Program-made: the position numbers and the translations under genes
DNA from: Hydrotalea sp.
GTDB taxonomy: Bacteria > Bacteroidota > Bacteroidia > Chitinophagales > Chitinophagaceae
Direction of reading: 5' to 3'
Assembly (NCBI GenBank): GCA_022402565.1
Contig: JAKRSC010000024.1
Span: 170,042 to 234,041, forward strand
DNA: 64,000 bases
The notes under the pieces: model-generated
Databases searched by the model: none
Told to the model about the DNA's origin: nothing
What the model saw: only the letters and a program-made list of their open reading frames with translations
Part shown: positions 9,031 to 50,068 of the stretch, piece after piece
Position numbering within the stretch: the stretch's first letter is position 1
Layout of the letters: each line of letters opens with the position of its first letter

Positions 9031-10341
9031 TTATTTCACCACTTCTCCTTCCAAATCATAGTCGTATGCTTTGGTAATCTTCACGTTCACAAAACTACCG
9101 ATCGGCAATTTTTTATCACTGTGAATCACCACTTCATTATCTACTTCTACTGAATCAAATTCAGTCCTTCCCAAATACCTTCCAGCTTCCTTCTTATCCA
9201 CCAACACCTTAAAGGTCTTTCCTACTTTTTCCTGGTTCTTTTCATAGCTGATTTCTTGTTGCACTTCCATGATTTCTTGTGCACGCTGTTGTTTCACTTC
9301 TGCTGGAACATCATCCACCAAATCATATGCAGAGGTATTTTCCTCATGACTATAGGTAAATATGCCAACCCTATCAAACCTATGTTCTTGTAAAAACTGC
9401 TTCAAAGACTCTACATCTTCTTCGGTTTCACCAGGGAAACCAGCAATAAGAGTAGTTCGCAAACAAATACCAGGCACACGCTCGCGGATAGTATGGATCA
9501 ATTCATCCATTTCAGCACGCGTAATTTGACGCTTCATAGCCTTCAACATACGATCACTGGCATGTTGCAAAGGCATATCGAGGTACTTACAGATATTATC
9601 GCGCTCACGAATGACATCAAGAATTTCTAACGGAAACTTACTGGGGTAAGCATAATGCAAACGAATCCATTGCAAACCAGGAATATCAGCCAGAGCATGC
9701 AACAGTTCCGGAAGACTTCTCTTTTTGTAAATATCTAACCCATAGTAAGTGAGCTCCTGTGCAATGAGCATAATTTCCTGCACACCTTGGGCGACTAATC
9801 TTTTGGCTTCATCAACCAGTTGTTCTATTGGTCTGCTAACATGCTTTCCTCGCATAAGCGGTATGGCACAAAACGAGCAAGTTCGGTTACAGCCTTCGCT
9901 GATTTTCATATAAGCATAATGCTGAGGCGTGCTTAAAAAACGCTCACCCAATAATTCAGCTTTATAATCGGCTTCGAATTGTTTTAGAATCAGAGGCAAT
10001 TCCATGGTGCCGAACCATGCATCTACTTCAGGAATTTCCGCAGCTAAGTCGCCTTTGTATCTTTCACTCAAACAACCTGTAACGTACACTTTGTCGAGTT
10101 TACCTTTCTTCTTTAATTCCAACTGATCTAAGATGGTTTGAACGCTTTCCTCCTTGGCTTTATCAATAAAGCCACAGGTATTCACTACAACAATGTTATG
10201 ATCTAGCTTGGTGTTTTCATGCACCACATCAATTTCATTGGCCTTCAACTGGCCACTCAACACCTCACTATCCACTAAATTTTTACTACAGCCTAGTGTA
10301 ATAATATTGACTTTGTCTTTCTTCAGCGATTTGGCTTTCAT
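9031..10341 (-). CDS. rimO: Ribosomal protein uS12 methylthiotransferase
   Basis: The product is 436 residues. RimO is a radical-SAM enzyme that adds a methylthio group to a conserved aspartate of ribosomal protein uS12. The N-terminal cluster domain shows its three cysteines in TLGCSKN, VNTCGFID and VTGCLSER. The radical-SAM motif is CNRTCSFC near residue 145. A C-terminal TRAM domain covers about residues 370-436 (GRYLGRTEFDSVEVDNE). The NLVDSEVLSG stretch favours RimO over MiaB. bshC follows without a gap. The strand upstream carries the rpsU terminator, so this gene probably has its own promoter near 10345-10400. Confidence 0.95.
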   Translation of the reverse strand: MKAKSLKKDKVNIITLGCSKNLVDSEVLSGQLKANEIDVVHENTKLDHNIVVVNTCGFIDKAKEESVQTILDQLELKKKGKLDKVYVTGCLSERYKGDLAAEIPEVDAWFGTMELPLILKQFEADYKAELLGERFLSTPQHYAYMKISEGCNRTCSFCAIPLMRGKHVSRPIEQLVDEAKRLVAQGVQEIMLIAQELTYYGLDIYKKRSLPELLHALADIPGLQWIRLHYAYPSKFPLEILDVIRERDNICKYLDMPLQHASDRMLKAMKRQITRAEMDELIHTIRERVPGICLRTTLIAGFPGETEEDVESLKQFLQEHRFDRVGIFTYSHEENTSAYDLVDDVPAEVKQQRAQEIMEVQQEISYEKNQEKVGKTFKVLVDKKEAGRYLGRTEFDSVEVDNEVVIHSDKKLPIGSFVNVKITKAYDYDLEGEVVK

Positions 10342-10402: not shown

Positions 10403-10434
10403 AAAAAAAGGTTGTTCCGTTTGAAACAACCTTT
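10403..10434 (-). terminator. Rho-independent terminator of rpsU
   Basis: Read on the minus strand, AAAGGTTGTT and AACAACCTTT pair around a short loop and are followed by a T run (plus-strand A run at 10403-10409). It lies 28 bases after the rpsU stop codon and makes rpsU a single-gene unit. Confidence 0.85.
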
Positions 10435-10461
10435 CTGTATATCATCTACCAAAGATGCGGC

Positions 10462-10659
10462 TTATAGCTCAATAGTGCCAGCAGCGATCTTTTGCTTGTA
10501 GATTGCCTTCAGGATTTCTCCTCTGCGACGAACAGATGGCTTGGTGAAAGCCTGACGCTCTCTTAACTGCAACAAAGTCTTGCTCTTTTCGAATTTCTTT
10601 TTGTACTTCTTCAGAGCTTTGTCGATGTTTTCGCAATCTTTGGAATCAATAATCAGCAT
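10462..10659 (-). CDS. rpsU: Small-subunit ribosomal protein bS21
   Basis: The product is 65 residues, the usual size for bS21, with many basic residues (KKYKKKFEKSKTL, RRRGEILKAIYKQK). bS21 sits on the small-subunit platform beside the 3' end of 16S rRNA. In Flavobacterium johnsoniae, structural and genetic work links bS21 to hiding the anti-Shine-Dalgarno sequence (established for that species). The gene stands alone, with its own promoter, a strong Shine-Dalgarno sequence and a terminator. That strong ribosome binding site is out of character for the window and suggests feedback control of bS21 synthesis (inference). Confidence 0.97.
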   Translation of the reverse strand: MLIIDSKDCENIDKALKKYKKKFEKSKTLLQLRERQAFTKPSVRRRGEILKAIYKQKIAAGTIEL

Positions 10660-10667
10660 GTTGTTAT

Positions 10668-10676
10668 ACCTCCTTT
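10668..10676 (-). promoter_or_regulatory. Full-length Shine-Dalgarno sequence of rpsU
   Basis: The minus strand reads AAAGGAGGT, eight bases before the rpsU ATG. It is complementary to nine bases of the canonical 16S rRNA 3' end. Other starts checked in the window (gdhA, ddl, htrA, folP, purE, nupC, cphA) have no comparable site. It probably mediates translational feedback by bS21. Confidence 0.9.
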
Positions 10677-10692
10677 AAGTGATTAAATGGGG

Positions 10693-10725
10693 TGCAAAGA
10701 TAGCTTTTCGACCGAAATAAACAAA
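10693..10725 (-). promoter_or_regulatory. rpsU promoter (TTTG, 19 bases, TATCTTTGCA)
   Basis: On the minus strand TTTG (10725-10722) and TATCTTTGCA (10702-10693) are separated by 19 bases, a close match to the Bacteroidota housekeeping consensus. The -7 box lies 33 bases before the start codon, which leaves room for the Shine-Dalgarno sequence. Confidence 0.85.
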
Positions 10726-10800: not shown

Positions 10801-11400
10801 ATGTTTACAGGAATTATTGAAACCTTCGGTCGGGTTGAAGCTATAGAAATGGACCAACAAAATATGCATTGCTGGGTCAATTCACCCATTAGCCAAGAAT
10901 TGAAAATTGACCAGAGTGTGGCTCATAATGGAGTATGCTTAACTGTGGATGCTTTGGGTGAAGGGAAACATAGGGTGACAGCCGTTGCAGAGACCTTGCA
11001 AAAAACCCAGTTGGGCGATTGGCATATTGGCTCTACAATCAATTTAGAACGTTGCTTACCTATGGGTGGACGATTAGATGGGCATATAGTACAAGGACAT
11101 GTTGACACCACAGGAGTTTGTGAATTGGTTCAAGAAACTGGTGGAAGTTGGCTGTATCAGTTTAGTTTTCCAGAATCATTTGCCGCCTTGGTCATTGAAA
11201 AAGGAAGTATTGCGGTGAATGGAATCAGCCTGACCTGTTTTAACATAACACGACAAAGTTTTCAAGTTGCCATCATTCCTTACACCTATGAACATACCAA
11301 CCTTTCACAGGTACAAGTTGGTCACCGCGTGAACCTTGAATTTGATTTGCTTGGGAAATATGTGCAAAGACAGATGGCGCTGGCTGAAGCGACAAACTAA
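10801..11400 (+). CDS. ribE: Riboflavin synthase, alpha chain
   Basis: The product is 199 residues. Riboflavin synthase turns two 6,7-dimethyl-8-ribityllumazine molecules into riboflavin and a pyrimidine by-product. It starts with the family hallmark MFTGIIE. It has two lumazine-binding repeats: the first runs to about residue 95 (VAHNGVCLTV, LGGRLDGHIVQGHVD-like region), the second follows (GSIAVNGISLT, IPYTYEHTNL). The gene is divergent from rpsU. I saw no FMN riboswitch in the roughly 75 bases free of the rpsU promoter. No other riboflavin gene is in the window. Confidence 0.95.
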   Translation: MFTGIIETFGRVEAIEMDQQNMHCWVNSPISQELKIDQSVAHNGVCLTVDALGEGKHRVTAVAETLQKTQLGDWHIGSTINLERCLPMGGRLDGHIVQGHVDTTGVCELVQETGGSWLYQFSFPESFAALVIEKGSIAVNGISLTCFNITRQSFQVAIIPYTYEHTNLSQVQVGHRVNLEFDLLGKYVQRQMALAEATN

Positions 11401-15228: not shown

Positions 15229-15468
15229 ATGATCGGAAAAATGAATGATTGGCACACAGGCTTGTCACCCGTAAAAAGGCTGGTTGTTTCCTTTGCCTTC
15301 CATTGGACCTATTGGTCAATAGCCTGGCTCGTTGCAGAACATTTTATTTTTGAGGAACAGAGATCTTGGAAGTACCTCCTTTTTCATGCAACTTGGATGT
15401 CTGCATGTATGACCATTCCATTTAGCTGGAAGGATTGGAAAGTCATTTTTAAAGGTCGTGCTGAATAA
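15229..15468 (+). CDS. Small hypothetical membrane protein
   Basis: The product is 79 residues with two likely membrane segments (about residues 20-40 and 52-66) and a basic C-terminus (KDWKVIFKGRAE). I do not recognise a family. The open frame continues back to a TTG at 15220; the ATG at 15229 or 15241 is a better start. It sits between tyrS and the alpha/beta hydrolase gene on the same strand, with 80-base gaps on both sides, so it may be a minor independent gene. Confidence 0.5.
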   Translation: MIGKMNDWHTGLSPVKRLVVSFAFHWTYWSIAWLVAEHFIFEEQRSWKYLLFHATWMSACMTIPFSWKDWKVIFKGRAE

Positions 15469-38114: not shown

Positions 38115-38462
38115 TTATAAGTGCATTTTTTCTTTCTTCGCCATTAATTCATCAATGGTTTCCTGATACAGTTCATCAGGCACACAGCAGTCAACAGGAC
38201 AAACAGCAGCACACTGAGGTTCTTCATGAAACCCTTGACACTCAGTACATTTATTGGGCGTTATATAATATGTGTCAGAACTAATAGGAGCAAATTTTTG
38301 GTCGGCATCTACTACGGTTCCATCCATTAAAACGTAAGAACCCTTTACAGTTGTTCCATCACTCATTGCCCATTCAACACCTCCTTCATAAATAGCATTA
38401 TTAGGACATTCGGGTTCACAAGCCCCACAATTAATACATTCATCTGTTATCTTGATTGCCAT
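38115..38462 (-). CDS. 4Fe-4S dicluster ferredoxin
   Basis: The product is 115 residues. Two cluster motifs are seen: [12 protein letters not shown] near residues 9-20 and CTECQGF...CAAVCPVDC near residues 72-91. The protein carries electrons in the cytoplasm; its partners are unknown. The two motifs are separated by a beta-hairpin insert. The gene is divergent from the acyl-CoA reductase gene, with a short palindrome between them at 38489. Confidence 0.93.
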
Positions 38463-48969: not shown

Positions 48970-50068
48970 TTAGTTTTCTGATGCATCTTCTTTTGCAGTC
49001 ATAAGATACGCCTTAATAAAACCATCTAATTCACCATCCATCACAGGCTGTATGTTACCCACTTCAAAATCGGTTCTGTGGTCTTTAATCATTTTATAGG
49101 GATGGAACACATAGCTTCTAATTTGACTACCCCATTCAATTTTTTTCTTTTTGGCATTGGTAGCATTTTTGGCTTCTTCTCTTTTCCTGAGTTCCTCTTC
49201 GTACAAACGGCTCTTCAACATTTGCATGGCTTTCTCACGGTTTCCTAATTGCGTTCTTTCAGTTTGACAAATAACAACAATTCCCGTTGGTAAGTGAGTC
49301 AACATTACTTTTGTTTCAACCTTGTTTACGTTTTGTCCACCCGCTCCTCCACTTCGTGCAGTTTCCATTTTTACCTCTGCATCTTTAATTTCAATCTCAA
49401 TGGTATCATCTATTAATGGGTAAACAAATACTGAAGCAAAAGAAGTATGTCGTCTTGCATTACTATCAAATGGTGAAATACGCACTAAGCGATGCACGCC
49501 ACTTTCTGCTTTAAGAAATCCATAAGCAAAAGCTCCGTCGAATTGTAACGTAGCAGTCTTAATTCCAGCGCCATCTCCTTCTTGAAAGTCGAGTTCAGTT
49601 ACTTTCCAGCCTTGCTTTTCACCATACATTCTATACATCCGAAGCAGCATCTCCGCCCAATCCTGGCTCTCGGTACCACCAGCTCCGGAGTTAATCTGCA
49701 ACACAGCACTTAGTTCATCTTCTGGCTCATTTAAAGTACTCTTGAATTCTGCATCATCAATTTTATTAAGTGCACTGTCATAAGCCTCTTTAGTTTCTTC
49801 CTCAGTTGCATCGCCCGATTTAAAAAAATCAAGTAATACCGCAAAATCTTCGACAGCTGTATATACGTCATCGTACATACGCATCCAGTACTCATTAACC
49901 TTAATTTCTTTGAGAATGGCTGTGGCTCTTTTATTGTCGTCCCAAAATCCTGGTGAAAGCGATAGCTGCTTGTCTTGCTCGTTTTTTATTTGACGGTTTT
50001 CGTAGTCAAAGAAACCTCCTCAGGACCTGCACACGGTCCCTCATATCTTTCAAATGCTCTTGTGTCAT
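48970..50068 (-). CDS. prfB: Peptide chain release factor 2 with programmed +1 frameshift
   Basis: RF2 ends translation at UAA and UGA. The coding sequence has two parts. The first (ATG at 50068) runs 20 codons to an in-frame TGA at 50008-50006. The context CTT TGA C, preceded by AGGAGG three bases upstream of CTT, is the classic RF2 frameshift site, and a +1 shift continues for 345 residues to give 365 in total, the same as in E. coli. The peptide-release motif GGQ appears in [11 protein letters not shown]. Without the shift the protein would be 20 residues. UGA read-through sensing makes RF2 self-limiting (known for this family). Confidence 0.96.
50006..50020 (-). promoter_or_regulatory. 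RF2 frameshift signal: internal Shine-Dalgarno, slippery codon and TGA
   Basis: On the minus strand AGGAGG lies three bases before CTT, followed by TGA and C. The spacing equals that of the E. coli site. The internal Shine-Dalgarno needs pairing with the 16S 3' end, which is unusual for this lineage. Confidence 0.93.

Follow-up and report, generated by a model that had tools for sequence, protein, structure and literature searches.

Feedback control of bS21 in Flavobacterium johnsoniae and, probably, at the present rpsU

The model of bS21 feedback is said to come from a structure paper, that of Jha et al. 2021. Autoregulation has been shown in Flavobacterium johnsoniae, where wild-type ribosomes make little protein from the rpsU leader and bS21-mutant ribosomes make 3- to 5-fold more (McNutt 2023, PMC9976891); the first-pass annotation of the present locus had stated that ribosomes of that species lacking bS21 favour rpsU mRNA, and this is indeed the published result. 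The same paper reports that Tyr54 of bS21 redirects the 16S tail, that the F. johnsoniae rpsU pairing energy is close to -20 kcal/mol (from a program other than duplexfold), and that exceptionally strong, extended rpsU Shine-Dalgarno sequences (SDs) occur across the Bacteroidota, among the Chitinophagales in about half. Its criteria are complementarity between rpsU leader and 16S over 9-13 bp and an energy below -13 kcal/mol (free_scan). Further criteria are that rpsU has the strongest pairing of all ribosomal protein genes and that its translation goes up when bS21 is scarce or truncated. A UCUCA anti-SD with a matching rpsU SD is described as covariation of the Chryseobacterium type (PMC9976891, PMC8710568). 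The prfB frameshift site, treated as dependent on rRNA-mRNA pairing, is reported to be absent from the Weeksellaceae, the clade that includes the UCUCA organisms (McNutt 2021, PMC8710568).

The rpsU site described here is, in our judgement, a member of this published feedback system, with a probability of about 0.85. By analogy with F. johnsoniae, a pocket formed by bS21, bS18 and bS6 would retain the 16S 3' tail in complete ribosomes, so that ordinary mRNAs would start without SD pairing. A 30S subunit without bS21 would have a free tail, able to pair with the rpsU leader in a helix of 11 base pairs (16S A1532-U1542 with AAAGGAGGUAU). Such subunits would initiate preferentially on rpsU, and bS21 would be restored.

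The rpsU gene and its flanking signals

The window, meaning the whole stretch of 64,000 nucleotides that was analysed, has the following features around rpsU.

9031-10341, minus strand (as rpsU): rimO, flanking rpsU on one side
10405..10436, minus strand: terminator-like hairpin 3' of rpsU, with seven U closing its 3' arm (from folding)
10462..10659, minus strand: rpsU, ribosomal protein bS21, an ORF of 65 aa with Tyr at position 54
10666..10676, minus strand: extended SD AAAGGAGGTAT, able to pair over 11 bases with A1532-U1542 of the genome's own 16S
10695..10725, minus strand: promoter of the Bacteroidota type, TTTG-N19-TATCTTTG, by pattern match
10801-11400, divergent from rpsU: riboflavin synthase gene, flanking rpsU on the other side

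The product is identified as bS21 by a family search (NCBIfam TIGR00030 S21p, score above cut-off) and by a PF01165 match in a search of its own genome. Its best solved chain in a structure search is 7jil_z, from an entry that PMC9976891 names as the F. johnsoniae ribosome. On the minus strand the leader reads ...TATCTTTGCACCCCATTTAATCACTTAAAGGAGGTATAACAACATG, and the promoter ends 35 bases ahead of the start codon.

A clear promoter and terminator had been claimed for the gene. The terminator half of the claim is supported by the hairpin, which has a stability of -16.2 kcal/mol and a z-score of -6.3. For the promoter, TANNTTTG precedes 104 of 132 rpsU copies at a distance of at most 60 nt (a raw count); the pattern TTTG-N19-TATCTTTG, which we take to be the Bacteroidota consensus, is not rare, as the window holds 3 copies where 2.5 would be expected, and a generic scanner called neither promoter nor terminator at rpsU. 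Overall, rpsU seems to be served by a promoter and a terminator of its own.

On visual inspection, a CC-containing stretch directly after TANNTTTG (e.g. TTTGCNNNCC) is repeatedly seen in rpsU leaders of the class, whether or not they carry an SD; this stretch (in the window, within 10660-10700) is perhaps a transcription-start or discriminator motif.

An extended Shine-Dalgarno sequence

The first-pass annotation placed a nine-base SD eight bases before the bS21 start. It is present, as AAAGGAGGT at 10668-10676 (minus strand) with the eight-base spacer ATAACAAC to the ATG, but it is contained within the longer match AAAGGAGGTAT. The complementary stretch is eleven bases rather than nine because the genome's own 16S, represented by a single match, ends in GGAATACCTCCTTTTAGAG; the tail AAUACCUCCUUUUA thus forms 11 consecutive base pairs with the rpsU leader. 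In E. coli numbering this tail is A1531 A1532 U1533 A1534 CCUCC (1535-1539) U1540-U1543. The two additional pairs are those of A1532 and U1533; in many other genomes of the Bacteroidia, position 1533 is a C. The segment A1532-U1542 reads AAUACCUCC in the window genome and AACACCUCC in many other families. The anti-SD core is the canonical CCUCC, hence not of the alternative (UCUCA) type.

All pairing energies given here were calculated with duplexfold (ViennaRNA). The rpsU leader pairs at -15.7 kcal/mol with 16S 1532-1544, and at -16.0 kcal/mol with tail 1531-1543. Exact copies of AAAGGAGGTAT number one in the window, where four other sites have one mismatch, and one in 984 kb of the genome.

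Rank of the rpsU site in the genome

For the ranking, 984 kb (the window plus 46 stretches), about a third of the genome, supplied 795 ORFs of 100 aa or more, each represented by its first start; rpsU is below this length limit and was scored separately. It pairs more strongly than all of the sampled starts, the best of which reach -12.9 and then -10.4 kcal/mol against -16.0 for rpsU, and more strongly than rpsR. Pairing is weaker at gene starts in general: 10 starts are at -8 or below, compared to 20 in a mock region. Across the whole genome, matches to AGGAGGTN{4,14}RTG are depleted (86 vs 133 in a reversed control), and GGAGGTN{4,14}ATG (168 vs 209) and AAAGGAGG (99 vs 143) are likewise fewer than in reversed sequence; AAGGAGN{4,14}ATG is not depleted (279 vs 237).

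The first rank is lost when alternative starts are admitted. With starts up to 40 codons inward, five ORFs have a site of -13.4 or stronger, and the strongest, at -17.0 inside the coding sequence of a ferredoxin ORF (38115-38462, so labelled from the appearance of cysteine motifs alone), beats rpsU. A scan of every RTG with GG upstream in about 1.02 Mb found 102 sites at -12.5 or below. Five of these are stronger than rpsU (-16.3 to -17.0), four on the same strand as the enclosing frame and one on the opposite strand; two of the four are one stretch in the ferredoxin ORF (codons EGGV). They were rejected as true rivals of the rpsU SD, as all five lie within longer stop-to-stop frames. A second copy of AAAGGAGGT occurs in the window at 15374-15382 (minus strand), not directly before a listed ORF start; chance alone predicts 0.54 such 9-mers for the window, and two or more turn up in 11 of 100 shuffles. 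The earlier observation, a strong SD at rpsU with none comparable at other starts, is confirmed for first starts in the sampled third of the genome.

In the foremost alternative the SD is simply constitutive: it would give more of bS21, a small ribosomal protein required in large amounts, and feedback would play no part. Strength and regulation are inseparable by sequence alone, and the apparent possession of its own promoter and terminator would suit a gene of this kind. However, rpsR, another ribosomal protein gene in this genome, pairs at only -6.6, which also led to its rejection as a second target; gene starts show fewer strong pairings than the mock region does; and the F. johnsoniae leader responds to the state of the ribosome, its output being 3- to 5-fold higher with bS21-mutant ribosomes (PMC9976891). 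We regard a purely constitutive SD as unlikely.

Still less probable is an RNA switch, in which the leader would mask its own SD by pairing of ACCCCAUUUAA with UUAAAGGAGGU. Most of the SD is indeed paired in the minimum-energy fold of the leader, but the z-score of that fold is only -0.53, and across 38 SD-bearing leaders the pairing probability of the SD is 0.58, compared to 0.53 with the upstream part shuffled. A leader hairpin hiding the SD was rejected, being no better than the shuffled controls.

Conservation among relatives

Only genomes with a readable 16S tail were used. In the order, 50 of 298 genomes had one, in the class 137 of 395, of which 124 were listed, and in one family 23 of 398. 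bS21 was sought in 160 genomes (50, 80 and 30), with matches in 49, 78 and 29. Five of the 124 listed class genomes were already included; of the other 119, 80 spread over families and a further 15 were searched, leaving 24 without a bS21 search, among them three more UCUCC genomes of family f30. The analysed set comprises 160 copies, drawn from 154 genomes in 48 families. It omits G363 and G472 (two different 16S tails each), G564 (a weak second match), five second bS21 copies without a locus, and G074 (UCUCU tail), G494, G348 and G444, all without a bS21 match.

In the family of the window (f1), all 27 members with a readable tail have TAT opposite 1532-1534, and 26 are at or below -13 kcal/mol; the exception, G295, has a core mismatch and reaches -10.5. 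The SD spacing is variable among these members. Among the best 80 of 439 relatives, many of them labelled Chitinophagaceae, 72 combine GGTAT with an energy of at most -13, scored with the tail of the window genome. The remaining eight, Ginsengibacter hankyongi and Parafilimonas terrae among them, have no SD, which makes the site dispensable in this group. There are no intermediates among these 80: the energy is either -14.6 or stronger, or -7.0 or weaker. Elsewhere in the order, both f4 copies have a strong SD, no SD is found in f3 (2 copies), f8 (7), f16 (2) or f19 (1), and 18 of 24 copies in f18 lack one at -9 or stronger. This mixture agrees with the figure of about half of the Chitinophagales given in McNutt 2023 (PMC9976891). 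In the bS21 alignment, Tyr54 is present in 42 of 47 copies with an SD and in 69 of 85 without one; being common in both, it does not discriminate SD presence.

An A/G-rich leader might match the 16S tail by chance or through its composition. The energy rank alone does not disprove this, because an exponential fit expects 0.19 starts as strong as rpsU in the sample and 0.58 genome-wide, but conservation excludes it: the match is kept in 27/27 f1 members with variable spacing and a covarying 16S.

Genes for bS21 also occur on 26 viral contigs. They were set aside because none of the 26 has an SD (best -4.2 kcal/mol with four host-type tails); such genes might escape the feedback of the host.

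Covariation of the rpsU SD with the 16S tail

The covariation set holds 57 SD-bearing copies (at most -9) in 13 family-by-tail units, which are not equivalent to a phylogeny. Short SDs with partial or no pairing at 1532-1534 (f62, one second gene copy of f75, and three of f18) were kept in it. At 1533, U is opposite A in 41 of 43 (f1, f4, f18, f23, f61, f93), and C is opposite G in 8 of 14 (f26, f43, f50, f75, f81), the remainder having T (4) or A (2). At 1532, A is opposite T in 40/53, U opposite A in 3/3 (f23) and C opposite G in 1/1. Within the core, 1535 has C opposite G (50/55) or U opposite A (2/2), and 1539 has C opposite G (51/52), U opposite A (3/3) or A opposite T (2/2). With own tails the Watson-Crick fraction at 1532/1533 is 0.744, and shuffling the tails between units lowers it to 0.467 (p 0.0011); adding 1535 and 1539 gives 0.813 against 0.581 (p 5e-5). 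The rpsU SDs thus track the 16S at 1532, 1533, 1535 and 1539. When each of 47 SDs was paired in turn with 18 tails and these were ranked by energy, its own tail came first for 22, second for 20, third for 3 and fifth for 2, an outcome that favours covariation only in part; the tail that usually wins over it differs at the last base used only.

SD-anti-SD pairing at rpsU, as read from the sequences, is well supported, because of the 11-base match to the genome's own 16S, the 27/27 conservation and the covariation across families. Sequestration of the tail and the feedback step would follow the example of F. johnsoniae. Autoregulation, predicted from the layout of the locus in the first-pass annotation, is partly supported: the pairing on which it builds is strengthened, and the feedback would be as in the F. 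johnsoniae experiments (PMC9976891), given the shared Tyr54, CCUCC core and weak other starts. As a new prediction for this organism it is largely anticipated, strong rpsU SDs having been published across the Bacteroidota and for about half of the Chitinophagales (PMC9976891).

A second user of the anti-SD

The window also contains prfB, with these features.

48970..50068, minus strand: prfB (release factor 2, TIGR00020), 20 codons, a +1 frameshift, then a 345-codon frame
50006-50011, minus strand: frameshift site CTTTGA within prfB
50014..50020, minus strand: SD-like AGGAGGT inside prfB, 2 bases upstream of CTTTGA

The 20 codons end AGG AGG TTT CTT TGA, so that the programmed frameshift site is intact, and its SD-like sequence pairs with the anti-SD at -12.6 kcal/mol. 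Since this site also uses the anti-SD, rpsU is not the sole reason for keeping it here.

Variant anti-SD cores

Fifteen of the analysed genomes have a core other than CCUCC, and GGAGG is found within 25 bases before the rpsU start in none of the 15. Three genomes of one Chitinophagales genus (g79 in f18; G226, G184 and G057) have CCUCU, with AAGAGG before rpsU; this pairs at -11.4 to -11.5 with their own tail and at -8.5 with that of the window genome, apparently a separate, compensated anti-SD change. Two f43 genomes (TGAGATGT) have UCUCA, with TGAGAT before rpsU, at -14.6 with their own tail and -3.7 with that of the window genome. The remaining ten, from five families, have UCUCC (f16, f18, f30, f8, f90) or UCUCU (f8), and none of these has an rpsU SD at -9 or stronger (strongest -7.4).

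A tentative reading, to which we give somewhat less than even odds, is that 16S 1532-1542 in the Bacteroidia evolves as the partner of very few messages, chiefly rpsU together with prfB. Where the SD is kept, changes on the two sides would be coupled, both beyond the core (1532, 1533) and within it (CCUCU/AAGAGG, UCUCA/TGAGA); where it is lost, the otherwise strongly conserved core would be free to drift (UCUCC, UCUCU).

The mechanism itself is already published; what is added here is further covariation between rpsU SD and 16S, of which that at 1532/1533 and that in the CCUCU genus may be new. Neither of these two was found described in passages of PMC9976891, PMC10783764, PMC8710568 and PMC9723584. 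The interacting stretch is widened to 16S 1532-1533. No experiment on rpsU feedback in the family of the window was found in the literature, and for this family the results lend support to the dependence of one message on an otherwise hidden anti-SD. Tail variants that occur in nature, the CCUCU genus in particular, could serve as existing swap tests of specialised ribosomes. Lineages that combine a variant core with the absence of an rpsU SD offer a handle on what keeps the anti-SD conserved.

Comparison with described systems

The rpsU locus of F. johnsoniae and that of the window share the bS21 gene, an extended SD, the canonical CCUCC core, Tyr54 and weak pairing at most other starts. The window rpsU lies within both limits of McNutt 2023, with 11 consecutive bp and -15.7 (from duplexfold, not free_scan). 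It differs from F. johnsoniae in that this 11 bp match reaches -15.7 against a published value close to -20, the two energies coming from different programs. The 16S of the window genome has U1533 and its SD reads GGTAT; f26, f43, f50, f75 and f81 have C1533, which is opposite G in 8 of 13 SD-bearing copies.

The programmed frameshift of prfB, as treated in McNutt 2021 (PMC8710568), resembles the rpsU SD in using the same anti-SD and is likewise present in the window, but it acts in elongation rather than initiation, and its match is shorter. With the Chryseobacterium type, as published, the window genome shares a 16S tail and an rpsU SD that change together, a relationship recovered here in the two f43 genomes; in the window genome, unlike that type, the core is canonical and the differing base lies outside it, at 1533.
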